Program-made: the position numbers and the translations under genes
Shown: positions 9,566 to 60,580 of the stretch, piece after piece
Position numbering within the stretch: the first letter of the stretch is position 1
How the letters are laid out: each line of letters starts with the position of its first letter
Assembly (NCBI GenBank): GCA_022843805.1
Contig: JALHMY010000026.1
Coordinates: forward strand, 1-64,000
DNA from: Fuerstiella sp.
GTDB taxonomy: Bacteria > Planctomycetota > Planctomycetia > Planctomycetales > Planctomycetaceae
Direction of reading: 5' to 3'
DNA: 64,000 nt
Notes under the pieces: model-generated
Seen by the model: the letters and a program-made list of their open reading frames with translations, nothing else
What the model was told of the DNA's origin: nothing
Databases searched by the model: none

Positions 9566-9594
9566 TGAATCCCGCTGGCTGTAACAGGCCGGAA

Positions 9595-10010
9595 GGTTTT
9601 AAACACCTCCTCCCCCAGCAAAGCTGGGGGAGGTCGAGCGAGCGGCAGCGAGATCGGGAGGGGGCCGGGTGAACTGCGGGGCGAGGGTGTTATTGGGACG
9701 TCGTTGAGTGCAACACGCGGCGGGCCCTCCCCCGGCCTTCGGCCGACCCCTCCCACTTCGCTGCGCTGCGCGGGAGGGGAGGTTTTAAAAACCTCCTCCC
9801 CCAGCGAAGCTGGGGGAGGTCGAGCGAGCGAAGCAAGCTCGGGAGGGGGCCGGGTGAACTGCGGGGCGAGGGTGATATTGGGGCGGCGTTGAGTGCAACA
9901 CGCGGCGGGCCCTCCCCCGGCCTTCGGCCGACCCCTCCCACTTCGCTGCGCTGCGCGGGAGGGGAGGGTTTTAAATACCGCCTCTCCCAGCAGAACTGGG
10001 GGGAGGAAGA
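9595..10010. repeat. GC-rich tandem repeat, 186-bp period, two full copies and a partial third
   Basis: GGTTTTAAA-type unit starts occur at 9595, 9781 and 9967, exactly 186 bases apart. Each full unit contains a hairpin built on CTCCCCCAGC-GCTGGGGGAG, a purine-rich stretch, and a second palindromic block (GGCCTTCGGCC, then TTCGCTGCGCTGCGCGGGAG). Copies 1 and 2 are nearly identical. Copy 3 stops after the first hairpin. Open frames on both strands here follow the repeat period and look like artefacts of base composition. Confidence 0.9.
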
Positions 10011-20307: not shown

Positions 20308-23190
20308 TCAATGATTCCGCTCACTCTTCGCTAAATACGGTTCTAGAAACATCCCTGTGTACGACGTTTTGCATTCTGCAATCTGCTCCGGAGTGCCGGT
20401 GGCGACGAGTTCGCCGCCTCTGTGGCCGCCTTCGGGGCCGAGATCAATGACATAGTCGGCCGTTTTGATCACGTCGGCATTGTGTTCGATCACGATAACC
20501 GAATGGCCGGCATCAACAAGGCGATTCAGACTGACCAGCAGTCTGTCGATATCCGCAAAGTGAAGTCCGGTTGTTGGTTCGTCAAGAATGCAGAGGTTAT
20601 GTTTTCCGTGTTTCAGCTTTCCGAGCTCAGCGGCCAGCTTAATGCGCTGGGCTTCTCCGCCGGACAGGATCGTGGACGGATGTCCGAGTTTCAGATATCC
20701 CAGTCCCAGTTCATTCAGCACTCTGATCTTTCGGGAAATCGTTGTTTGATCTGCAAAGAAGCCGGCGCTATCTTCGATTGACATTTCGAGCACATCGGCG
20801 ATGGTCCTGCCGCGGAACGTCACTTCCAGCGTGTCTGAGTTGTACCGGGCGCCTTTGCAGGTGGGACAGCAGACTTCAACATCCGGCATAAAGGAAAGCT
20901 GTGTGGTGATCGCCCCTTCGCCGGAACACTCTTCACACCGTCCGCCTTTGACGTTGAAGCTGAATGTTGAGGCAGTAAAGCCTTTATTTCGAGCCGTTTC
21001 GGTGTTCGCAAACAATGTGCGGATGGCGTCATAGATACCAATGTAGGTCGCAGGATTGGATCTCGATGATCGGCCGATCGGTGACTGATCAATGTCAATG
21101 ACATCCGAAAGATGCTCATGACCGGTTAATGTGTCGTGATCGCCGGCAAGAACACGGCTATCCTGCAGCAGGGAAACGAGCTGTTTTTGAACAATCGAAT
21201 GAATCAGTGAGCTCTTTCCTGAACCTGACGCACCGGTCACGCATACAAACTGCTCCAGAGGAATATCAACGTCGATGTTCTTCAGGTTGTTGTGACGTGC
21301 TCCCCTTACTTTCAGGAAACGGCCGCTGGCGGCTCGCCGCTGCCGGGGTACGCAGATCTGTTGCCGTCCGCTCAAATATGCTCCGGTCAGCGACTGAGGA
21401 TCCTTCAGAATCTGTTTCATCGTTCCCTGCGCCACAACGGTACCACCATGCACTCCGGGTCCGGGACCAATTTCGATAATGTGGTCCGCGGCACTGATTG
21501 TCTCCGCATCGTGTTCAACAACAATTACAGTGTTTCCGAGATCCCGCAGGTGCTTGAGCGTTTCGATCATTTTGGCGTTGTCTTTCGGATGCAGGCCGAT
21601 GCTGGGCTCGTCCAGCACGTACAACATTCCCATTAACCCCGATCCAATCTGAGACGAAAGTCGAATGCGCTGCGACTCGCCGCCCGACAGCGTGGAAGAG
21701 CCGCGATTCAGGTTCAGATAGTCCAGTCCAATCGATATCAGCAGTTCCAGCCGAACCATAACCTCCCTGAGAATCGTCTCCGATACAGCCTTTTGCCCTG
21801 ATGAAGGCTTAATCTGCGAGAGAAATTCCAGCAGCTCCGACAGATGCATCTCGCCGACCTCGTAAATACTGCGATCACTCACAGTCACAAGGCGTCGGGC
21901 CTTTTTTAGCCTCGCGCCATTGCATTCGGGGCAGGGATATTCAACCATCACTTTCTTCAGATACTCATCCATGCCGGCATTCGATGTTCCCTGCTTTCGA
22001 TACCAGCGGTAGCTGTGTTCAAGGTGATTCACGACTCCGTTGTATTTCATTTTCTTGCCGACGTGCTGCTGACCCTGCTTCGCTCCTGGCGGCATAATCA
22101 CTTCAAACTGTTCACCTTTTGTTCCATACAACAAAAGTTGAACATGTTCGTTCGACAACGTTTCGTATGGCTCATCAAGGCTGAAGCCGTAATGCGAAGC
22201 CATGCTGTGAAGTATGCGCCCGCCCCAGCTGTCGCGATTGTTGCTCAGTGCCGCGTTGACAAAGGCCCCGTCGTTGAGCGAGCGTCTGGGATCAGGAACG
22301 AGCAGCGCCGGATGGACCCGCATGGTGGTTCCAATGCCGGAACATGTCGGGCAGGCACCGGCAGGATCATTAAACGTAAACTGAAATGCCTGGAGTTCGC
22401 TGGCGACGATGCGATGTTTTGTGCAGCCGAAGCCGTCATAAAAATCCTTCAGCTTTGGTGTCAGCTTCTTCGGGCTCATAATATGAAAGCTCAGCAATCC
22501 ATCACCGAGCTTCAGTCCGTGCTCAAGGGATGTTGTTACCTGCGTGTCGATGCCCGGACCGATGACAAACGTATCAATCACCGCCTCGATTGCGTGCGAT
22601 TCATCTTCGTCCAGTTCGATATTGTCACCCAGGTCGCACGGCTTTCCATCAATGCGAGCTCGACGGTATCCGTTCACTCGGATCAGTTCGAACAGATAGT
22701 TGTAGTCCTCACCGTAGATTCGATTAACAGGAGCGCGCACTTCCACTTCGGTACCCTTCGGCAGCGACAGCAGATGTTCGGTCATCTGATACGGCGAACG
22801 AATGGCGATGGCTTCCCCACACATCGGACAGTGCGGCGTTCCAAGGGTTGCAAACAGCATTCGCAGGTAATCCGAAATGTCGGTCATTGTGCCGACAGTC
22901 GAACGCGGATTGGAGCCGATTGTTTTCTGATCGATGGAGACGACCGGAGACAGACCGTTAACAAAATCCACGTCAGGCTTCTTCATCTGTCCGATGAATC
23001 GCTTTGCGAAAGTGGACATCGATGCCAGTAGTCGTCGCTGTCCCTCGGCGTAAACCGTGTCAAACGCCAGCGAGGATTTCCCTGAACCGCTGACTCCTGT
23101 GACAACGACAAGCTGATCGCGGGGAATTTCGAGGCTGATATTCCTGAGATTATTCTCGCGTGCTCCCTGGATTTCGATTGTCGTTCGCAT
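20308..23190 (-). CDS. uvrA: excinuclease ABC subunit A
   Basis: UvrA is the damage-recognising ATPase of nucleotide excision repair and works as a dimer with UvrB. Two ABC ATPase halves are visible. The first has [14 protein letters not shown] near the N-terminus, the signature [11 protein letters not shown], and [11 protein letters not shown]. The second has [25 protein letters not shown] and [11 protein letters not shown]. Zinc-binding cysteines are seen in [31 protein letters not shown] and [10 protein letters not shown] chose ATG 23190 (960 residues, MRTTIEIQG), because family homology begins there. The frame is open to 23316, but the extra 42 residues overlap the upstream gene. The nearest upstream gene ends 97 bases away, and co-transcription is possible. 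Confidence 0.95.
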
Positions 23191-23287
23191 TTTATGCCTT
23201 CGGGCACTTCGGCGCAGAGAAGGATGGCGTCGTGCAGCCAGTACAAAAGAGGCGACCCGTGAAGAAAGACAATTGTACCGGGCGAAT

Positions 23288-24265
23288 CTATCCCGCGGTC
23301 TCGGTCCAACGGACACCGTCCAGATAATACGCCGGCTCTTCCACCTGTTCCCGGCTGCGCGATGTTAACTTGAAGGGCGTTGAGAGTTTCTCCAGAAATC
23401 CTTTTTGCTCAAGCCATTCACACACGGATTCAAGATGCCATGGATAAATCTGAGTCCATGCAAAGTGATCACTGATCTCAGACAATGGCACGATGCGATT
23501 TTGCGTTATCAGATAGTTCAGCAGCGGGTTCAGGTGCTCTTCAAAATGCTGATCGAGATACGCATTAACAGCATCAATCGCTGCAGCAAGCACCTCTGAA
23601 TTTTTTCGCCTCCTCAGCACATTCAAATACAGGACCTGAAACAGATCCGGAGCCAGCTCGATCGCTCGATAGATCGCTTCCTGCTCCCAGACTTCGCCGG
23701 AGCGAATAATTTCCGTACAGGCGACACTATGGGCTGCGTTGAGCACTTCCAGACTGGCAAGCTCCACATCTTGCCTGTTCTCGAGCAACTTTCGAGCGTG
23801 ACGGACCGAATGAATCGTCCATGTCGAAAACATGAGCAGTTCACGTTCCCTGTCCTTCACAGCGACGGTGCTGGCCTGGGCGAACCAGTTATCAATTGAA
23901 GGATCGATACTGTAAACGAGTCTCCGGGTGGCGAAGAAGTTGCAGGAAAACGCAGTCCGCGAAGAACCTTCAACCATCTGCCGAAAGCGACTTCGCGGAA
24001 TAACTTCCGCATGAATATTGATGTTATTTTCAACAAGAATGCGATAGATGCGTTCGTCGCTGCCGTCACTTCGCAGTCGACGACTGACTCCATCTGCTTC
24101 AATGATCCACAGCTGCAATGATTCTCGCCGCCAGATCGTTTCTTCGGACAAACTTCCCACGAGCACCGTGGCAAGAATGTATCGATCTTCCCTGAGTCGC
24201 TCGATCAGCTGATTCAGAGCAAGCTCGAATCTCGCGACCTTCCCGGCATCTGATTCGTGAACCAT
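23288..24265 (-). CDS. uncharacterised protein, possibly nucleotidyltransferase-like
   Basis: The 325-residue protein has an N-terminal alpha/beta region with [19 protein letters not shown], which resembles the GS motif of minimal nucleotidyltransferases. The paired Asp residues expected later in that motif are not clear (LWIIEAD). The middle is mostly helical (residues about 135-260), and the C-terminus is helical, with a winged-helix-like stretch ([21 protein letters not shown]). There is no signal peptide, so it is probably cytoplasmic. It is followed by uvrA on the same strand with a 97-base gap. I do not recognise a named family, and the nucleotidyltransferase assignment is a weak inference. 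Confidence 0.75.
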
Positions 24266-33589: not shown

Positions 33590-35023
33590 ATGCAAGCGGG
33601 ACAGAATTACCCAACACTGGCCGAGTTGTTGTCGCGTCGCGACGTGTTTTCGAGATCTGCCTCTGGATTTGCCGGACTGGCTTTGGGCAGTCTGATGTGT
33701 AGTGCATCGGCATCTGCGTCGGAGCATTCTGCATCGGGGGTTCCCGTCGGCTGCCATTTTCCACCGAAAGCGAGGGCAGTAATCCAGTTATTTCAGCACG
33801 GCGGTCCCAGTCATATGGATTTGCTCGATCCAAAACCCGAACTGAATCGGCAGGATGGCAAGCCGATGCCGAAATACTTTACCGATCTGGTAAAGATCAG
33901 TTCGCATGGCAACCTGCTGGGCACTCCTTTTCGTTTTCATCGATCGGGAACCTGCGGAGTTGAATATTCAGAGCTGCTTCAGCATACAGCAAAAAACGCT
34001 GACGACATTGCGATCGTCCGCTCCATGTACACGGAACACAATAATCATGAACAGGCACTCTGGCATATGCATACCGGCCGAATCGTTTCCGGCCGTCCCA
34101 GTATTGGTGCCTGGGTGAACTATGCGCTCGGCAGCGAAAATGAGAATCTGCCTGCCTATGTTGTCCTGCGAACCGACAATAGTCTGCCTGTGGATGGGAC
34201 GCGTAACTGGTCAGCCGGATTCCTGCCGCCTCGATATCAGGGCGTTCATTTTCGACACACGGGAAGTCCGGTGCTTTATCTGCAGCCATCGACACCCGTT
34301 TCAGAAACGACACAAAATCTGCGCCGTCGGCTTCTGCAGCAGCTGAATGATGTTCACATGGCTGAGCATCCGCGGCTTGCTCCGGATCTGGAAGCTCGAA
34401 TTGCAAGTTATGAACTTGCCGGTCGCATGCAGTTATCCGCCGAAAGGGCATTGAACATCGGGGAAGAGACATCCGCCACACAGACAGCCTACGGAATCGG
34501 AACGGAACCGACTGACAGCTATGGCAGGCGATGTCTGATTGCCCGGCGTCTTGTTGAACGAGGCGTACGGTATGTGCAGATCTTTATCGAGAGTCAGATC
34601 TGGGATACACATGCAAAGAATGCCGAGTCAACTCGAAGCTGTTGTCTTCGAACAGACCAGCCCGTTGGGGCGTTACTGACTGATCTTCGACAGCGGGGGC
34701 TGCTGGATTCAACTCTTGTGGTCTGGGGCGGCGAATTTGGGCGCACGCCGGTCAGCCAGTCGGGAGACGGGCGGGATCACCACAAACAGGGTTTTTCCGT
34801 GTGGCTGGCGGGAGGCGGAATTCGAGGCGGCCAGGCTTACGGAACAACCGATGAACTCGGTTACAACGCGGTGGAAAACCGGGTGATGGTTGCAGATCTG
34901 CATGCCACGATACTCCACCAGCTTGGCCTGGATCACAAAAAGGTGACTTACCATATCCACGGCCGTGATGAGCGACTGACAGATGTGCATGAAGCACGGA
35001 TTCTGCGGCCACTGATCAGCTGA
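33590..35023 (+). CDS. DUF1501 protein, twin-arginine exported
   Basis: The 477-residue protein has a twin-arginine leader (LLSRRDVFSRSASGFAGLAL). DUF1501 signatures follow: QHGGPSHMDLLDPKPEL, GPSIGAWVNYALGSE-like sequence, GGEFGRTPVSQSGDGRDHH and GFSVWLAGGGIRGG. A GGAG sequence lies eight bases before ATG. It follows the PSD1 gene in the same order as in the minus-strand pair at 14.8-19.4 kb. The similarity of the two units argues for a fixed functional partnership between the haem protein and the DUF1501 protein. Reaction unknown. Confidence 0.94.
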   Translation: MQAGQNYPTLAELLSRRDVFSRSASGFAGLALGSLMCSASASASEHSASGVPVGCHFPPKARAVIQLFQHGGPSHMDLLDPKPELNRQDGKPMPKYFTDLVKISSHGNLLGTPFRFHRSGTCGVEYSELLQHTAKNADDIAIVRSMYTEHNNHEQALWHMHTGRIVSGRPSIGAWVNYALGSENENLPAYVVLRTDNSLPVDGTRNWSAGFLPPRYQGVHFRHTGSPVLYLQPSTPVSETTQNLRRRLLQQLNDVHMAEHPRLAPDLEARIASYELAGRMQLSAERALNIGEETSATQTAYGIGTEPTDSYGRRCLIARRLVERGVRYVQIFIESQIWDTHAKNAESTRSCCLRTDQPVGALLTDLRQRGLLDSTLVVWGGEFGRTPVSQSGDGRDHHKQGFSVWLAGGGIRGGQAYGTTDELGYNAVENRVMVADLHATILHQLGLDHKKVTYHIHGRDERLTDVHEARILRPLIS

Positions 35024-35052: not shown

Positions 35053-37719
35053 TCAGGAATCCGCAGCTGATGGTCCAAATGTTTCCTTAAGAAATTCGAT
35101 CTGCTCATCCCTGTAGTGCACTAGCTTTGCGAATTTATTCAATGCGGCGTGGCTGGTGAATCTTGCGATCCGAGGAGTTGTCCAGCCGGCGAGAACCGCG
35201 CGAGTGACTCCGAGTGATTCAGCCAGCTCAGCCGGAGAAAGTGCGGCCTGGGACAGCACAAGTCCCATAAACTCGGCTCGGATGGCTCGCAGTTCCTGAG
35301 GCGACACGGAGTTGCGAACGCGATCCCGATATTCGAGAACGATGGCCGACAGTCGAGTTGGAACCTGTCGTCTTCCCTTCTTCCATGACGCGGTACTCAG
35401 AATGACGAAGCGTCGATAGTTTTCACTGCCTGGATAAAATCCCATGCCATGTTCTGCCAGCCTTCCTGCAACACGGTGATGGAGAAAATGTCCATCGTCC
35501 AGAGCAAATGCCCGCAGCGACTGTGGGCTGACCCCGACTTCGCGACTGAGCCGCACGATTCCGCCGCGTTGTTCGATGATTTTCCCGGTCATGGAATGGA
35601 TGGTGAAAGGTGAATTGCCGTCTTCAATCTGCCGCAGCAATTGTGCCGGGCTTACAGGCACCTGAACGGCATGCGGATCCACGCAAGCAACAAACTCGAT
35701 AAATCGTGATCGAGAATGCGGGCTGATTCCGGGAGTCGTTTGTTCCAGAAGGTCTGCAAGGAACTCGGCCTGCGCCAAAGTGGCTCGACGAGCAGACTTT
35801 CTGCCGTTTTCACGAATGCCTTCACGCAGATGCCGAAAGACCTGTGTATCACCAAGTCCGCAGAGCGCCAATTGCTTTCCTACCTGCGGCCCCGTAAGAC
35901 TGGAAAGCGAGTCCCGGCCAAATACTCTTCTGAGCAGCTGAGCGGCACGGTAAGTTTTGATGGCTTCGTCATCCAGACGGCAGCGTTCAGGCACCGAACA
36001 GGTCCCGGCTGCTTCAATCGCTTCTTCCAGCGATCCAATATGTGATGTGAGCAGGGTGATGGCTCTTTCATTCTGACGGCGGATTCGTTCTGGTGTCAGA
36101 GGAAAGCGAGCAAGATCGGGTGGGTTCAGCAGATCCACAATCCGTGCAGCACGCTGTCGATCTTCGATACAGCGTTCTGTTCCCTGACGCATCCACTGTT
36201 GAAAGAGGGACTCATGAACGTCCGTCAGTTCGGCGATCCGAGTCAGAGGAAAACCGGATGAATCAACAAGCGCCCGCACAAGTTTTCCCCGGTCGCTTTC
36301 CGCAAGAGCGAGTTCCACGGAGGTAAGCAGTGCATTATCAGCGGGCCGCACCATCGCAATATCAGCAATCACGCGGCGGTTTCGCGAATTGACGAGTGGG
36401 GTCAGGAGGAGGCCCGTTTCGTCAGCAAGAGCACAGTACGTGCCGAGTTCATCTCTCAAACTGACCTGAAGAACTCGGGCGTTCTGTGCAACGCTCAGAG
36501 GCAGCGAGTATTGACGACACATGTGCCGCTGCGTTCTGGCAGATTGCCAGTCACAGTCAAGAACGCCCGTCAGAGCTTCGACACCTGCAGGTCTTACAGA
36601 AAACGTATTGCCGGCCATTCTCCACAGCCGCTGTTCAACATCGAGCTGAACATCGCCCTCCGGGACGAAGGCTGACACCATTTTCTGAAGGCACTCGCGG
36701 TTGGGGCGTTCGCTGTGCCGAGTCAGATAATTTCGCAGAGCACTGCCCGTGACACCCGGCCCATTGTGCTGGCGGAACCATGCCTGCTGGCGTCGATCAG
36801 ACCGATAACGAGAAGTATTCTGAACGGCGATCCACTGGCCGAGCTGCTCGGGCGACATACGGGACTGAAATCGCCCCCGGACTGAAGGCTGTTCGGATCT
36901 CCATGCTGAAAGCAAAGCCTCAAGAAACTCCGGAAACTGACAGGCCGCGGAAAAGCATCGTTCCACGACATGCATAAACGATTCTTCGCAACCGGCATCA
37001 TCCCGCCGTGCCTGTTCGGGGATATAGGCGAGTGCTTCTGTCGCCGCTGCATTCCATCGGGAAGGTGACGTGGGCGAAAGTCGTTTGATGCTGATTGACT
37101 TCAGAGTGCGACTGCGCAGCTGGCTGTCCTGCCGGGCCGTATGATTATTTGTCCGCGGTGAAGCAGTCGCGGAAGCCGCACGGCCTGATCCCGGTGGTGT
37201 CACGCGAGCCGCTCGATTTGCCTGTTCCTCTTCCAGTTCAATGAGTCTTGTCAGCAGACGCTGCTGACGCTGTTCATGAACCATTCGCTGACGGGACTCA
37301 TGCAGTGAGGCAATTTGCGCAGCATTATTGCGGCGAGTACAGTCAATGACGCCATCAAGATACGGCGGCTGAGAGCGTCTGCCATAGCATTCGGCAACGT
37401 ATGCTGCACCAACCAGTTCATCCCAAAGCTGCTGTCCGGAAGTCGAAAGCTGATCCCGCGGGCCAATCACCAGATCGGCAATCAGCTGTCCAAGTGGTTT
37501 TGTGGGGGCAAGACGGCCGACCAGAATTGCATCCAGCTCTCGCCCCAGTTCCGGTTCCAGACCTGACAACATCTGTGACACAGGATCACAGGGTTGTCTG
37601 TCGACAGCAGCACGAAGCAGCCTGAGCAGATCATCGCTGGTCCGGAAACGACGCAGCAGTTGCTCGCGCAGCTGGACATGGAATGGAGCGAATTCTCCCA
37701 TAGGAAACAGGCAGCTCAT
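35053..37719 (-). CDS. unrecognised 888-residue protein with multiple HTH-like modules
   Basis: I do not recognise the family. There is no signal peptide or membrane segment, so it is likely cytoplasmic. At least four segments look like helix-turn-helix units. They lie at about 290-352 (VTGSALRNYLTRHSERPNRE), 476-532 (LTRIAELTDVHESLFQQWMR), 708-758 (IVRLSREVGVSPQSLRAFAL) and 815-870 (PAELAESLGVTRAVLAGWTT). Each resembles the XRE-type second and third helices. A charged, Gln/Arg-rich coil (about 137-170) and a disordered Ser/Thr/Pro-rich linker (about 170-225) separate an N-terminal helical region (1-136) from the rest. It is transcribed alone, converging on the second DUF1501 gene 30 bases away. 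It may bind DNA or RNA at several points, or act as a large regulatory scaffold. ATG at 37701 is an alternative start. Confidence 0.8.
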   Translation of the reverse strand: MSCLFPMGEFAPFHVQLREQLLRRFRTSDDLLRLLRAAVDRQPCDPVSQMLSGLEPELGRELDAILVGRLAPTKPLGQLIADLVIGPRDQLSTSGQQLWDELVGAAYVAECYGRRSQPPYLDGVIDCTRRNNAAQIASLHESRQRMVHEQRQQRLLTRLIELEEEQANRAARVTPPGSGRAASATASPRTNNHTARQDSQLRSRTLKSISIKRLSPTSPSRWNAAATEALAYIPEQARRDDAGCEESFMHVVERCFSAACQFPEFLEALLSAWRSEQPSVRGRFQSRMSPEQLGQWIAVQNTSRYRSDRRQQAWFRQHNGPGVTGSALRNYLTRHSERPNRECLQKMVSAFVPEGDVQLDVEQRLWRMAGNTFSVRPAGVEALTGVLDCDWQSARTQRHMCRQYSLPLSVAQNARVLQVSLRDELGTYCALADETGLLLTPLVNSRNRRVIADIAMVRPADNALLTSVELALAESDRGKLVRALVDSSGFPLTRIAELTDVHESLFQQWMRQGTERCIEDRQRAARIVDLLNPPDLARFPLTPERIRRQNERAITLLTSHIGSLEEAIEAAGTCSVPERCRLDDEAIKTYRAAQLLRRVFGRDSLSSLTGPQVGKQLALCGLGDTQVFRHLREGIRENGRKSARRATLAQAEFLADLLEQTTPGISPHSRSRFIEFVACVDPHAVQVPVSPAQLLRQIEDGNSPFTIHSMTGKIIEQRGGIVRLSREVGVSPQSLRAFALDDGHFLHHRVAGRLAEHGMGFYPGSENYRRFVILSTASWKKGRRQVPTRLSAIVLEYRDRVRNSVSPQELRAIRAEFMGLVLSQAALSPAELAESLGVTRAVLAGWTTPRIARFTSHAALNKFAKLVHYRDEQIEFLKETFGPSAADS

Positions 37720-37954
37720 TGATGTTGCCTGGAACGAATGAGATTTTCAGAAGGAGGGGTGCAGGCAGCACCTCGCCAGCGAAATCGTTCGAATCAGGCA
37801 GGGAGGGCAGGTGTTTAGGGGCAGGAATTCTTCAGGCAGGGGACAAACTGATGGTTCCGTTCAGAAATCACCGTTAACCTGAGTTTCACAAATCAGGATG
37901 TAAAGTTCAATCCACCGAGCGAGTGGACTGATCAGCCAAATGCAGAAATTACAA
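37720..37954. other. spacer before the multi-HTH gene
   Basis: This should hold the promoter of the 888-residue protein's gene. It is G-rich on the plus strand (AGGGAGGGCAGG near 37800). I could not identify a promoter with confidence. Confidence 0.35.
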
Positions 37955-37987
37955 AAGCCCGGCATTTTGCTGTAAAATGCCGGGCTT
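37955..37987 (-). terminator. Rho-independent terminator of the DUF1501 gene
   Basis: A perfect 14-bp stem AAGCCCGGCATTTT (37955-37968) pairs with AAAATGCCGGGCTT (37974-37987) around a 5-base loop. Read on the minus strand it is followed by TTGTAATTT, giving a T-rich tail. It lies about 60 bases past the stop of the DUF1501 gene ending at 38046. Confidence 0.8.
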
Positions 37988-38045
37988 CATGGAGATCAGG
38001 TGAGCAGGTTGCCGAGGGGCAAACCGCCGGTCAGACGGCGTAGGA

Positions 38046-39518
38046 TCAGGAAAACAGTGCCATCGCAGCGTCCGCTTTTACCATTTCGCGTGGCTGATTC
38101 AGGTGATTCAATACCGTCTTGCGGGGATAGATTCCCACAGCATGGTAAATGGATGCGAGCAGCTGACCCGGGTGTACCGGATTTTCTGCCGGTGCCGAAG
38201 CAGTTTCATCCGACTTGCCATGCACATATCCGCGACGAATACCTGCACCTGCAATCAGGCCGGTGTAACAGTACGGCCAGTGATCGCGACCATCATCCGT
38301 GTTGCTGTTGCCGGATGTGCTGACACCACGTTTCGGGCTGCGGCCGAATTCACCAACGGCCACGACGAGCGTCTCTTTCAGCAATCCGCGTTCATCCATA
38401 TCTTCCAGCAGAGCAGAGAGGCCAGCGTCCAGCATCGGAGCAGACTGATCCTTCATACGTTTGCTGAGACCCGCGTGAACGTCCCACGAATGATTGTCCG
38501 AATTTGCAACTTTCGGCCAGTTGACTTCGACAACGCGAGTGCCCGCTTCAACCAGTCGTCGAGCCAGCAGGCAGCTTTGACCAAACGTGTTGTTGCCGTA
38601 TTTTTCACGAGTTGCCGGAGCTTCAGCACTCAGGTTGAATGCCTCTCTTGCCCGGCCGGACAGAACCAGGCCCAGCGCCTTCTTGTAGTATTCATCCAGA
38701 GCATACTGTTCTACCGCACGATCCAGATCCTTCATCCCAGCATTAACCGTGTCACGCAATGATGCTCGACGGTTCAGTCGATCCAGAGAAACTTCGCTGC
38801 GAAGTGTCAGGTCATCAATGCGAATGCGTTCCATCTTCGCCAGATCCATGTCATCGCCCGACGGATACAGATAATATGGATCGTATGCACGACCAAGGAA
38901 TCCGGCGGTACCAGCTTTCCCAATAACGTTACTCTCCTGCAGCGGCCGCGGCATCATCACATAAGGAAGCATTGGCACCACCGGTGGCTTCAGCTTCACA
39001 ATGTTACAGCCAAAATTTGGGAAGTCCTTCGGGCTGGGTGGTTCAAGCTGTCCGGACGGACTGACATTGTCGGCCGTATAGCCAGTCAGCATCTGATAAA
39101 TGGCGGCCGTGTGATTGAACAAACCAATGGGCGTGTAGCTGAGTGAACGGATCAGAGTCGCCCGATCAATCTGCTGTGCCAGTTTCGGCAGCAGTTCCGT
39201 GAACTGCACGCCAGGAAGTTTTGTATCGATGTTCCCAAAGATACTGCGAACGTTATCCGGCACATTGGTTTTCGGGTCCCACAGATCCAGATGACTTGGA
39301 CCGCCCTGCAGGTAAATCATAATCACGCTTTTGGCAGACCCAAAACCTTTGCCGCCGTATCGTGCTTCTTCTTCAGACGCATCGGCACCTCTGGCAGAAT
39401 TCTGCAGCAGTGAGGCCACACTCAGCCCGGCTAGGGCTGAACTGCCCACTCGAATCAGGTCGCGACGGGAATAGCCGTCACATGTGTCTTTGCCAAAACG
39501 ACCAGGGATCACAAGCAT
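38046..39518 (-). CDS. DUF1501 protein, twin-arginine exported
   Basis: The 490-residue protein has a twin-arginine leader ([19 protein letters not shown]). Family motifs include [46 protein letters not shown] and [19 protein letters not shown]. This subtype has a longer middle region and is more divergent than the two DUF1501 genes paired with PSD1. I chose ATG 39518 because GGAG lies seven bases upstream; the upstream TTG at 39530 is the Shine-Dalgarno region itself. No PSD1 gene is adjacent, so it is a singleton. A strong terminator follows its stop. Confidence 0.93.
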
Positions 39519-39840
39519 GGCAAACTCCAAAAACTATGCAACGAGGCAGGATGGAACAAAGCAACATGAAACACGGGAAGCAAAGTGATTCGTCAGCAAA
39601 TCGATTCGTCAGAACAGTGGGGTGCACTAAAAATGCAGTGCACGAAAAGAGGATCATGAACTGATATAACAGCTGAGGCATTTCAGAACAACAGACCACG
39701 AACGGCAGGCGGCAAAACTCTGCCAATTCCGAGGTGCCTGAATAGTGTACAAAGAAATCGTGTGCCGTGGCAACGCTGCTCTTGGGATTTCGTGAGCGAT
39801 TGGATATCGTTCGCGTCGCCATGGTGGCAGGGAGCAGAAC
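39519..39840. other. divergent spacer between DUF1501 and SDR genes
   Basis: The two genes diverge, so promoters for both should lie here. A 7-bp stem GTGCACT-AGTGCAC (39622-39643) is present, and a 10-base direct repeat GATTCGTCAG lies near 39587-39612. Neither is a known operator. No other gene is seen. Confidence 0.4.
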
Positions 39841-56569: not shown

Positions 56570-59500
56570 TCACGGCGTGACAGGCTGCGACTTTTGCTGA
56601 TTTCCTGAAATATCTCGCTGATACATTCTGAATCGTTCGCGATAACGACTCGGTGGGGTCGTCTGTCGAACTGTCGTATCCTGCTGTTCCCGGTCTCTCG
56701 CAGATGTTCCCTTTCGTGCTGAGCCCGTTTTGTTGATATCCAGACTTCTCAGCATTTCCTCAAAGCTTCGCTGGCTGAGGCTTTTCTCCTTCTGCTCCTG
56801 CTGCGACTCGGTCCGTTCTTCCAGTTGCTTTTGCATCCGCTGCACAAACGACTTGAGTTCGTCTTCAGTCCATCCCAGTTGCTTCAGAAGATCCTCATCC
56901 ACCTCACCGCGTTCCAGATCCTTCTGCAGACGTTTCAAAACAAGATCGGCTGCTTTGGCAGCATCGTCTGCATTTCCTGAATCTTTCGAATTCGGAGTGG
57001 CAGCACCGGCCGAATCTCTGGGCGTGCCCTGGCCGGACATCTCACCACTACCCTGAGCCTGGCCGTCGCCCGCAACCTTGTCTGCGTCATCATCCGACTG
57101 TGTGAATGCATTCTTGCCAATTGAGGAACTTCCACCTCCCTTGCCCGCACCTCCCGGCTGACCCTGGCCCTCTTGAGGACTCTGCTTTCCGTCTCCGCCT
57201 TTTCCGCTCTGTTGACCGCTTCCTTCACCGCCCTCACCTCCCTGTTGGCCGCCTTCCTGTCCTCCCTGTTGACCGCCTTCTTTACCGCCTTCTTTGCCGC
57301 CCTCTTTGCCGCCTTCTTTACCGCCCTCTTTGCCGCCCTCTTTGCCGCCTTCTTTGCCGCCTTCTTTACCGCCTTCTTTACCGCCCTCTTTACCGCCCTC
57401 TTTACCGCCCTCTTTACCGCCCGACTGCTTTTCACCCGACTGCTTTTCGCCAGACTGCTTTTCGCCAGACTGCTTTTCGCCCGACTGCTTTTCGCCCGAC
57501 TGCTTTTCGCCCGACTGCTTTTCGCCCGACTGCTTTTCGCCCGACTGCTTTTCGCCCGACTGCTTTTCGCCCGACTGCTTTTCGCCCGACTGCTTTTCGT
57601 CCGACTGCTTTTCGCCAGACTGCTTTTCGCCAGACTGCTTTTCGCCAGACTGCTTTTCGCCAGACTGCTTTTCGCCCGACTGCTTTTCGCCCGACTGCTT
57701 TTCGCCCGACTGCTTTTCGCCCGACTGCTTTTCGCCAGACTGCTTCTCGCCCGACTGCTTCTCGCCCGACTGCTTTTCGCCCGACTGCTTTTCGCCCGAC
57801 TGCTTTTCGCCCGACTGCTTTTCGCCCGACTGCTTTTCGCCCGACTGCTTCTCGCCCGACTGCTTCTCGCCCGACTGCTGCTCGCCAGACTGCTTCTCGC
57901 CAGACTGCTTCTCGCCAGACTGCTTCTCGCCCGACTGCTTCTCGCCAGACTGCTTCTCGCCCGACTGCTTCTCGCCCGACTGCTTCTCGCCCGACTGCTT
58001 CTCGTCCGACTGCTTCTCGTCCGACTGCTTCTCGCCCGACTGCTTTTCGCCCGACTGCTTCTCACCTGACTGCTTTTCGCCCGACTGCTTCTCGCCCGAC
58101 TGCTTCTCGCCCGACTGCTTCTCGCCCGACTGCTTCTCGCCCGACTGCTTCTCGCCCGACTGCTTCTCGTCCGACTGGTTCTCACCAGACTGGTTCTCAC
58201 CAGACTGCTTCTCGCCAGACTGGTTCTCGCCCGACTGCTTCTCGTCCGACTGGTTCTCGCCAGACTGGTTCTCGCCAGACTGGTTCTCGCCCGACTGCTT
58301 CTCGTCCGACTGCTTCTCGCCCGACTGCTTCTCGCCCGACTGCTTCTCGCCCGACTGCTTCTCGCCCGACTGCTTCTCGTCCGACTGCTTCTCGCCCGAC
58401 TGCTTCTCGCCAGACTGCTCATTCGCTTCGCTTTGCTGACTGCGATCCTCGGATGGCTCATTACCAGAATTGCGGTTTTGAGGTTCCTGATATCGCTGCA
58501 GAAGCGTTTCCAATGCTTCGTCCTCTTCCGCCGCGGGCCGTGGCTTTTCAGAACGATTCGGATTGTCAGAATTATTCTGAGAGGAAGTTTCGTTCTTGCC
58601 ACTGTCAGAATTCTGAGGGCCAGTTTTGGATGCGGGCTCGTTCCCGGACTTCGTCATATCACCTGCAGCGGGAGTTTCTGACGGACTTTGCCCCTTGTTG
58701 GATTCCTGAGAGTTCGCAGCCTGCGTTTGACTGTCTGTTGAACCCGCTTCACTCCCGGTGCTTTCATTTGACTGTTCGTCTTTTGTGGATGATGCTGCCT
58801 CGCCTGCGGGCTGCTCCTTTACCTGCTGAGGATTGCTGTCCGGATCAGTACCGTTGTCGTCGCCAGGCTCAGTCGGCTGCTGAGCACCCGCGTTGAGTTC
58901 CCGCAGCTGCTGTTTCTGAATCTCCCGATCCTGCGCAAGTTGCTCATCGATCACCTGCTTTGATGCAGGGTCCAGAATGATCAGCTGAAGCTCGCCGCTT
59001 CTCGACAGATTGCCCAGAGGAGGTTTATTGTCACGAGCCGTAAGATAGTATTTCACCACGTCGCCAGGTTTAACACCCAGCGACTCCAGCTGAAAGTCCC
59101 AGGTTCCAACCCACTTCTTCTGCAGACCGTTTTGAAATGCATCGAAGACAGATTCGGCTGGATCAACCGGAACCCCGTTCACTTCGTAATGCAGAGATAC
59201 AGACCGCAGAAGAAAATCCGGATCTTCTGCTTCAATCAACAGTGGGATCACGGCGTTTGCCGGAACCTCGAGGTCTCGTGCGGGATCCACAAGCCGAATC
59301 ACAGGCGGCTGATCCTTTCGACCATGAACTGAATATACCGTAGGATCGGGATCCTGATTTCCCTCGGCATCCTTAACCATTAAACGATAGAAAGCAGGGA
59401 AAGATCCATCTTCACGGGCTGTCAGAGTCAACTGCACTGAAAGATTCAGGTCTCTGACAGTCACCGGGAGTTCTTCGGCTTTTGTTGTAAATGTGGCATC

Positions 59501-60580
59501 ATCGGAGAACTGCAGCAGGGACGTTTCGACCGGCACGTTTGTAGTGGCCTGAATCGTAAGCTCCGTATTCTCCCACGCATCAATGTTACCTGAGTTCTCG
59601 GTGCGGTCGGCGAGCGCCATGTAATCCGGATACTTATAGCTGACGTCCGTCACTTCTGCCGCGGGAGGTTCTTTTACCGTGATATGAAATTCTTCCGACC
59701 GGGCATCTCCAGCCACAACCGTATATGTCATCGACTGTCGAATTCCACGATCCTGTTCGCCAACAAGCAGTACACGAAAACGGCCGGCGTCTTCGGTCGA
59801 TCGCATCGTCAGTTGTTCGTTGACGAAGCGCTGGTCTGCGGTGGAATAAAGGACGGTGACAGATTCCGGAATTACGCCCGTCAGATCGGCAATAATTTCA
59901 AGTTGTGATCCTGAAGGAACAGTCGTATCCCCGGGGCGAATTGAACGGATCACCGTACGAGTTGCCACCTGAGTGCCGGAGAGCGTCAAAGGTCTCAGCA
60001 GGCTTATCGCCTTCGGGCTGACAACTGCATAAATGCATGTGGCAATGACAAGAGTAAACAGTGCCAATCCCATTCGAACAAGAAGAGTCCGGTCGATCAC
60101 CTCGTCAACATGAACTTCAGACAAACGGACGGCAGCTCTCTTTTCCAGAGTTCGTATCATCGCGCTGTCGGATACCCGGCCGGACGATTTCATATCGACC
60201 AGTGTGAGCAGCGTGCCATTTCGGTCCGTGTCGGACCGATCCAGCATTCGGGCTGCAAACAGCGGATTCACCCGTTTAAACCATGGACGGATCACATACT
60301 GAATCACAATCGCGGCACAGGCAGTCAGCACGACCCCCAGCATCAGAGCACGTGTCCACGGTTGAAAACCACCGTCAACCACCCAGTGATCAAAGATCGT
60401 GAATAACAGCACGTAACCGACAAGCAACAATCCTGCCAGCACAGATGCCGTCAGCAAATCCGTCCACTTGATTCGCTCACGAGCTACCTGAATCTGATAA
60501 TCGACGAACTCATCACATTCCGCATACGGATGGCCGGTTGATTCAGTGACAGTTGCCACAGCGTTGACCTCAGTATTCAA
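56570..60580 (-). CDS. DUF4175-like membrane protein with giant pentapeptide repeat
   Basis: The 1336-residue protein has membrane helices at about 37-60, 75-97 and 168-195, then beta-rich exported domains to about 560 (EFHITVKEPPAAEVTDVSYK; VKYYLTARDNKPPLG). A Glu/Ser/Gln-rich region follows. Residues about 722-1053 are 66 tandem SGEKQ-type pentads (57421-58410 on the genome), then 12 tetrads of KEGG type (57278-57421) and a Gly/Gln stretch. A globular helical tail (LVLKRLQKDLERGEVDEDLL, FVQRMQKQLEERTES) ends the protein. Similar planctomycete proteins have low-complexity stretches but rarely this length. It is probably an envelope protein with a flexible hydrophilic spacer. Confidence 0.85.
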   Translation of the reverse strand: MNTEVNAVATVTESTGHPYAECDEFVDYQIQVARERIKWTDLLTASVLAGLLLVGYVLLFTIFDHWVVDGGFQPWTRALMLGVVLTACAAIVIQYVIRPWFKRVNPLFAARMLDRSDTDRNGTLLTLVDMKSSGRVSDSAMIRTLEKRAAVRLSEVHVDEVIDRTLLVRMGLALFTLVIATCIYAVVSPKAISLLRPLTLSGTQVATRTVIRSIRPGDTTVPSGSQLEIIADLTGVIPESVTVLYSTADQRFVNEQLTMRSTEDAGRFRVLLVGEQDRGIRQSMTYTVVAGDARSEEFHITVKEPPAAEVTDVSYKYPDYMALADRTENSGNIDAWENTELTIQATTNVPVETSLLQFSDDATFTTKAEELPVTVRDLNLSVQLTLTAREDGSFPAFYRLMVKDAEGNQDPDPTVYSVHGRKDQPPVIRLVDPARDLEVPANAVIPLLIEAEDPDFLLRSVSLHYEVNGVPVDPAESVFDAFQNGLQKKWVGTWDFQLESLGVKPGDVVKYYLTARDNKPPLGNLSRSGELQLIILDPASKQVIDEQLAQDREIQKQQLRELNAGAQQPTEPGDDNGTDPDSNPQQVKEQPAGEAASSTKDEQSNESTGSEAGSTDSQTQAANSQESNKGQSPSETPAAGDMTKSGNEPASKTGPQNSDSGKNETSSQNNSDNPNRSEKPRPAAEEDEALETLLQRYQEPQNRNSGNEPSEDRSQQSEANEQSGEKQSGEKQSDEKQSGEKQSGEKQSGEKQSGEKQSDEKQSGENQSGENQSGENQSDEKQSGENQSGEKQSGENQSGENQSDEKQSGEKQSGEKQSGEKQSGEKQSGEKQSGEKQSGEKQSGEKQSGEKQSDEKQSDEKQSGEKQSGEKQSGEKQSGEKQSGEKQSGEKQSGEKQSGEQQSGEKQSGEKQSGEKQSGEKQSGEKQSGEKQSGEKQSGEKQSGEKQSGEKQSGEKQSGEKQSGEKQSGEKQSGEKQSGEKQSGEKQSGEKQSDEKQSGEKQSGEKQSGEKQSGEKQSGEKQSGEKQSGEKQSGEKQSGEKQSGEKQSGEKQSGGKEGGKEGGKEGGKEGGKEGGKEGGKEGGKEGGKEGGKEGGKEGGKEGGQQGGQEGGQQGGEGGEGSGQQSGKGGDGKQSPQEGQGQPGGAGKGGGSSSIGKNAFTQSDDDADKVAGDGQAQGSGEMSGQGTPRDSAGAATPNSKDSGNADDAAKAADLVLKRLQKDLERGEVDEDLLKQLGWTEDELKSFVQRMQKQLEERTESQQEQKEKSLSQRSFEEMLRSLDINKTGSARKGTSARDREQQDTTVRQTTPPSRYRERFRMYQRDISGNQQKSQPVTP
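57278..58410. repeat. coding tandem repeat: 66 x 15 bp and 12 x 12 bp
   Basis: The 15-base unit reads CCGACTGCTTTTCGC or CCGACTGCTTCTCGC on the plus strand, and every 60 bases hold exactly four units from 57421 to 58410, with no indel. TTTTCGC-type units dominate 57421-57740 and TTCTCGC-type units dominate 57840-58410. Substitutions mostly give SDEKQ or SGENQ variants. The 12-base unit occupies 57278-57421. Confidence 0.95.

Follow-up and report, generated by a model that had tools for sequence, protein, structure and literature searches.

A lineage-restricted Fuerstiella protein predicted to carry several XRE-type helix-turn-helix modules in a single chain

We analyzed a 64,000-nucleotide stretch of DNA from the planctomycete Fuerstiella sp. 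(contig JALHMY010000026.1, positions 1 to 64,000; hereafter, the window). An earlier note, made from the letters alone, had singled out an 888-residue frame at 35053-37719. This open frame is present on the minus strand, and its coding nature is supported by a relative in a congener (G002), an 809-aa frame at L004:1530-3959 that is the sole convincing relative found. The two proteins are 50% identical within the alignment; identity is 53% across the C-terminal half and 43-45% over the N-terminal portion. Over 797 aligned codons, the two genes differ at fractions of 0.38, 0.32, and 0.66 at codon positions 1, 2, and 3, a pattern that marks a coding gene under constraint; the focal frame is, therefore, a real gene that encodes a constrained protein. 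The relative begins with MAEHSPFHVQL, which aligns with MGEFAPFHVQL from the Met at residue 7 of the focal frame. We therefore moved the start from 37719 to 37701, which is probably the true start. Residue numbers below refer to the 888-residue frame (Table 1).

Table 1. Features of the focal gene and its upstream DNA (window coordinates; hhalign scores are those of two-row alignments against the XRE profile, each followed by how many of 100 column shuffles scored as high)
Feature	Residues	Position	Strand	Details
Focal gene, corrected start		35053..37701	-	882 aa; the relative in G002 begins at the equivalent Met
M1, possible N-terminal XRE-like module	7-116	37372..37701	-	hhalign 14.3, 5/100; H3-H4 part at 37465-37539
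Long charged helix, coil-like	120-172	37204..37362	-	AlphaFold, 53 residues; pLDDT 58-79 in about 30
Basic linker, poorly conserved	173-243	36991..37203	-	pLDDT about 25-36
M2, XRE-like module (probable)	244-372	36604..36990	-	hhalign 16.8, 0/100
Insertion segment without HTH signal	373-457	36349..36603	-	hhalign 10.7, 31/100
M3, XRE-like HTH module	458-556	36052..36348	-	hhalign 23.4 over 63 columns, 0/100
M4 candidate, conserved block	560-668	35716..36042	-	hhalign 11.0, 39/100
M5, XRE-like HTH module	700-780	35380..35622	-	hhalign 21.9, 0/100 (tested residues 688-790)
M6, XRE-like HTH module	800-888	35056..35322	-	hhalign 24.2, 0/100 (tested residues 784-888)
CAGGCA/TGCCTG, five copies		37708..37838		Ahead of the start codon; weak candidate operator
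Terminator-like hairpin		37954..37988	-	Separates the focal gene from the DUF1501 gene upstream of it; 15-pair stem and T-rich tail

The focal gene is flanked by two DUF1501 genes on opposite strands. It converges with the one at 33590-35023, the stop codons lying about 30 bases apart, and shares its strand with the one at 38046-39530, which lies upstream beyond the hairpin. Terminator-like sites in the region number four against 3.3 expected, and the hairpin ahead of the focal gene is by far the longest. In G002, the neighbors of the focal homologue are an esterase/peptidase-like gene and a gene that reads by translation as Gfo/Idh-like. The G002 counterpart of the DUF1501 gene at 33590-35023 is followed by about 780 bases up to the contig end, which contain no focal homologue, and the counterparts of the DUF1501 gene at 38046-39530 in G001 and G002 have other frames close behind. 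The focal gene, thus, has no neighbor conserved between the two genomes that would hint at a target, and no insertion site is definable because the neighbors are nonsyntenic between congeners. Given the convergent gene and the hairpin here and the differing neighbors in the congeners, the gene is probably transcribed alone, as its own unit. Its third-position G+C of 0.523 is close to that of eight neighbors (0.523-0.569) and, therefore, gives no sign of recent import.

The encoded protein is basic, with a pI of 9.4 and 10.6 and an arginine content of 11.8 and 12.7% in the two relatives. No transmembrane or signal stretch was found in 19-residue Kyte-Doolittle windows (maximum mean of 1.07 overall and 0.13 within the first 40 residues), and the chain is apparently cytoplasmic, as had been proposed. 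The earlier statement that it belongs to no known family was borne out: NCBIfam returned 0 families, Pfam returned only HTH-type matches to the focal protein, all under cut-off, and no family in Pfam, NCBIfam, PHROGs, or PADLOC spans the chain. Pfam HTH_23 (PF13384) matched residues 474-511 (E 6.8e-5, 23.0 bits vs. a cut-off of 24.6); in the relative, its whole-protein score of 25.9 bits exceeds the cut-off, with the best stretch (728-763) in M6. YdaS_toxin matched residues 713-737 (E 0.0099), and HTH_31 matched residues 824-854 at what is by itself chance level (E 1.7). The 23-bit cut-off of HTH_3 was missed by both the M6 segment (12.4 bits) and the relative (17.0 bits). The PADLOC models of antiphage defense gave 0 families for the focal protein and, for the relative, only a 25-residue match to mad1 (E 0.0013). 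Pfam matches to FAD_binding_3 (E 0.076) and DUF438 in the relative were set aside as chance level, as were the matches from PDB sequence searches, the best of which was a glycosyltransferase (E 0.65, and 0.17 in a second search).

An XRE profile was made from the sequences of 17 HTH_3 domains encoded in the same genome. Eight segments of the focal protein, each as a two-row alignment with the relative, were then scored against this profile with hhalign. Significance was taken as the count of 100 column shuffles that reached the segment’s score; such shuffles also destroy helix periodicity. By these profile matches, M3, M5, and M6 are firmly predicted to be XRE-type HTH modules (matches at residues ∼478-543, ∼706-756, and ∼818-844, respectively), in line with the proposal that several XRE-like modules share one chain, which the predicted fold described below supports weakly. 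The match of M5 covers profile positions 1-51 in the two-row alignment and only positions 37-60 with the focal sequence alone. M2 is a probable fourth module, split by an insertion: its match (residues ∼288-351) consists of H2 (36817-36858) and H3-H4 (36667-36753) with 21 residues between them, and H3-H4 is identical at 24 of 29 positions between the relatives. The match of M1 is suggestive of a fifth, N-terminal module. M4 is unsupported as an HTH, its score being within reach of column shuffles (Table 1), and the helix-plus-linker segment scored 11.5 (16/100 shuffles). The 85 residues of the insertion segment are mostly absent from the relative and match no family. The earlier count of at least four HTH modules is, thus, likely: three are firm, and M2 is a probable fourth.

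A sliding scan of 82 two-row windows peaked at the same places, with three strong peaks (20.0-24.4), followed by M2 (17.3) and M1 (about 14.5). The maximum among 119 control windows from three neighbor pairs was 12.7; these pairs are 63-81% identical, compared with 44% for the focal pair, and hence carry less profile information, and the PSD1 control is a fragment. With single sequences, 533 control windows from 23 neighboring proteins reached at most 18.3. Two of them, from one helix of a TatD-like protein, scored 18.1-18.3, and the next scored 15.1. M3, M5, and M6 scored 22.7, 19.0, and 20.7 in the focal protein and 17.9, 21.7, and 25.2 in the relative; M5 and M6, therefore, lie above all controls in both relatives and M3 in the focal protein only. 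The two TatD-like windows outscore the relative’s M3 as well as M1 and M2. As the single-sequence scores of M2 (16.2 in the focal protein and 14.9 in the relative) fall under these top controls, its assignment draws on the two-row tests.

In 15 comparisons among the six candidates, M3-M6 and M5-M6 scored above 30/30 shuffles, M4-M5 did so marginally over 13 columns, and the other 12 failed to beat 30 shuffles. Self-BLAST of the protein found no internal repeat. These comparisons, therefore, do not establish that the array arose through tandem duplication. We delimited the HTH cores of M2, M3, M5, and M6 by eye, guided by the profile matches. Identity of the two relatives within these cores is 68%, whereas the same mask shifted circularly along the alignment gives 50% on average, and 2 of 796 shifts are as high as the cores. 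Conservation does not single out the HTHs, however, because the unsupported M4 block (33 of 50 positions identical at its center) is equally conserved. The focal protein as a whole is fast evolving compared with three neighbor pairs of the same two genomes: 44% of its alignment columns are identical vs. 81% in each of the two DUF1501 pairs and 63% in the partial PSD1 pair.

A full-length AlphaFold model made with the two relatives was unusable (mean pLDDT of 40.3, pTM of 0.21). A crop of M5-M6 reached a pLDDT of 65.3, and Foldseek returned 252 matches to this model among solved structures at E ≤10, none of them at E ≤0.001. The best match was a C-protein (E 0.31), and the best 50 of the 252 were mostly XRE type by title (Cro, cI, SinR, HipB, HigA, C-protein). 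VIA-align gave Z values of 5.1-6.2 over M5 to YmfM, HigA, 434 Cro (5.2), DdrO, and SinR and of 4.5-5.0 over M6 (model residues 117-199) to MOR, 3f6w, and 3eus. By the tool’s own warning, Z values of this range are common for helical models, so that an XRE fold of M5-M6 is weakly supported but unproven. The outcome that the earlier note had named as contrary to its reading, a non-HTH fold, did not appear for M5-M6, the sole stretch folded with moderate confidence. The “coil” of that note corresponds to a single long helix in the AlphaFold model. A coiled coil is unproven, as the pLDDT of the helix is limited (Table 1) and other parts of the chain show stronger heptad patterns. The region that follows (residues 171-243) has a pI of 11.6 and is identical between the relatives in 18 of 73 columns.

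Across the family (170 genomes, its own included), the protein has strong matches in two genomes, and both belong to the genus (2 of 4 genus genomes). The congeners G001 (99% complete) and G003 (94% complete) gave no match, nor did the other 166 family genomes outside the genus, save for one chance-like match of 46 residues. An order-level search of 170 genomes had the same outcome. In a class sample of 397 genomes, only the gene’s own genome gave a full match, and five others gave weak local ones (E 0.002-0.007); in a phylum sample, the own genome was again the 1 match among 392, at E 1e-4. Two of the weak class-sample matches were judged to be chance, as they read by translation as an ABC-transporter-like protein (G133, E 0.002) and a repeat/cytochrome-like protein (G018, E 0.005, also counted in the family search). 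The remaining ones (G122, G195, and G297) each have an E value of 0.007. Since these scans begin with a lenient filter and then score just a handful of sequences in each genome, very distant relatives could be missed. The gene is single copy in its own genome.

The focal gene is, thus, real, unusual, and lineage restricted, and it is built from known parts. The reading that we favor, to which we give about an even chance, is that it encodes an accessory, taxon-restricted multivalent DNA-binding protein in which such parts form an unusual array. A role as a multivalent nucleic acid-binding regulator, as the earlier note had suggested, is plausible. Three to five XRE-fold HTH modules in the chain would each grip a short half-site, the long charged helix near the N terminus may pair chains, and avidity across several adjacent or distant sites would then be the source of binding. 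The protein might in this way repress, loop, or bridge DNA at limited loci. We infer DNA binding for the protein as a whole; some modules may not touch DNA, because M1 and M3 lack a basic pI (5.3 and 6.8, with 17 reference XRE domains spanning 5.5-11.1). A bolder version, which seems unlikely to us, is a lineage-invented “HTH string”, one chain with five or six XRE-type readers that would pair via the helix and read a long composite DNA address or clamp distant sites together. Among the open-license papers listed in a literature search, we saw no account of a comparable string of XRE modules, and none dealt with such a planctomycete protein.

XRE/Cro/cI-type regulators are usually short proteins with a single HTH that acquire another by dimerization, and bacteria normally multiply HTH contacts by oligomerizing small proteins. 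Regulators of this type (434 Cro, SinR, HipB, HigA, and C-proteins) are like M3, M5, and M6 by profile and show a weak likeness in fold to M5 and M6, but the focal protein has at least three HTHs within one 882-aa chain. HTH arrays in single chains are already known for other proteins. The extension of the type-3 BREX methyltransferase BrxXI carries three HTH-like domains, which are fused to a DNA methyltransferase (PMC12839542), whereas Pfam finds no enzyme domain in the focal protein. Giant actinobacterial toxins are described with an HTH-domain array in a single protein that also bears toxin, glycosyltransferase, and export domains (PMC8195603), none of which was found in the focal protein. 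Two other systems may serve as analogues for how several HTHs yield specificity. In the 4:2 Xre-RES complex of Pseudomonas putida, several XRE DNA-binding units act jointly on one promoter, and the multivalency arises through the complex with the toxin (PMC12204516), whereas the focal protein is one chain with no toxin partner seen. In the small terminase ring of phage SF6, weak HTHs become specific through joint action in an array (PMC4737164); this is a ring of separate subunits for viral packaging, unlike the single focal chain. A native single chain with at least three XRE modules would exemplify natural covalent multivalency and would be useful for asking how several weak readers yield specificity and how a single genus comes to have new regulators.

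The several HTH modules, the strongly basic linker, and the high arginine content would also suit a structural chromatin protein that bridges the nucleoid, binding widely and compacting DNA, which the earlier note had offered as its other candidate role. Proteins of the nucleoid core tend to be small and well conserved. The broad lineage conservation expected of a nucleoid-associated protein is absent here (2/170 in the family, 2/4 in the genus, none in the two nearly complete congeners), and the focal pair is less conserved than the three neighbor pairs. A core chromatin protein, which we now regard as improbable, would be expected neither to be so patchy in its presence nor to change so fast, and the patchy distribution favors an accessory regulator or bridging factor instead. 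XRE-fold domains also dimerize, and the modules could be degenerate ones that have become a platform for protein-protein contacts or scaffolding instead of binding DNA. The acidic M1, the near-neutral M3, and the insertion within M2 point in this direction; the conservation of the HTH cores, which exceeds that of most other parts of the protein, speaks against it, but a protein-binding surface would fit this as well. We hold a scaffold role to be unlikely, if still worth considering.

Patchy presence and differing neighbors, together with weak Pfam matches to HTH_23 and HTH_Tnp_1 at M3, would fit a remnant or component of a mobile element, such as a transposase-type HTH array or a phage regulator. 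Yet only HTH parts such as HTH_Tnp_1 were seen, with no DDE or recombinase catalytic domain in Pfam up to E 10, and the gene is present in one copy with a third-codon G+C like that of its neighbors. No match at E 0.001 was found among 50,697 phage or 72,556 plasmid records, and none was confirmed in viral contigs. A mobile origin, therefore, appears quite improbable. More improbable still is an RNA- or ribosome-associated protein that uses XRE-fold modules in the manner of MBF1/EDF1. MBF1/EDF1 chains do occur among the structural matches of M5, but they are not singled out, because they have XRE folds like most of the other matches, and Pfam finds no RNA-binding domain in the focal protein.

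A possible target of the favored DNA-binding protein is the CAGGCA motif ahead of its own gene. Its five copies compare with 0.26 expected, an excess spotted after the fact, and the relative’s upstream stretch has two against 0.29 expected. One copy lies 6-7 bases ahead of the start codon in both relatives. A pattern of three copies occurs nine times in the own genome vs. two for a reversed control and is present in 4/4 genus genomes; because three-copy sites are, thus, not confined to this gene, the operator stays a weak lead. As a separate observation, the pattern search also gave matches on contig C111 of G001 near 18.7, 184.7, and 191.4 kb, where short repeats whose cores are palindromic, of the type CAGGCAC...GTGCCGTCCGC, form arrays.

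Elsewhere in the window, a 15-bp unit is tandemly repeated about 67 times at 57418-58419 and reads as EKQSG-type repeats. It lies inside a minus-strand frame of 1336 aa (56570-60580) that has hydrophobic stretches close to the N terminus. A 185-bp unit that contains a palindromic stretch is present in 2.2 copies at 9594-10002. The minus-strand frame at 20308-23316 is UvrA-like, with 1002 aa and UvrA interaction and DNA-binding domains.
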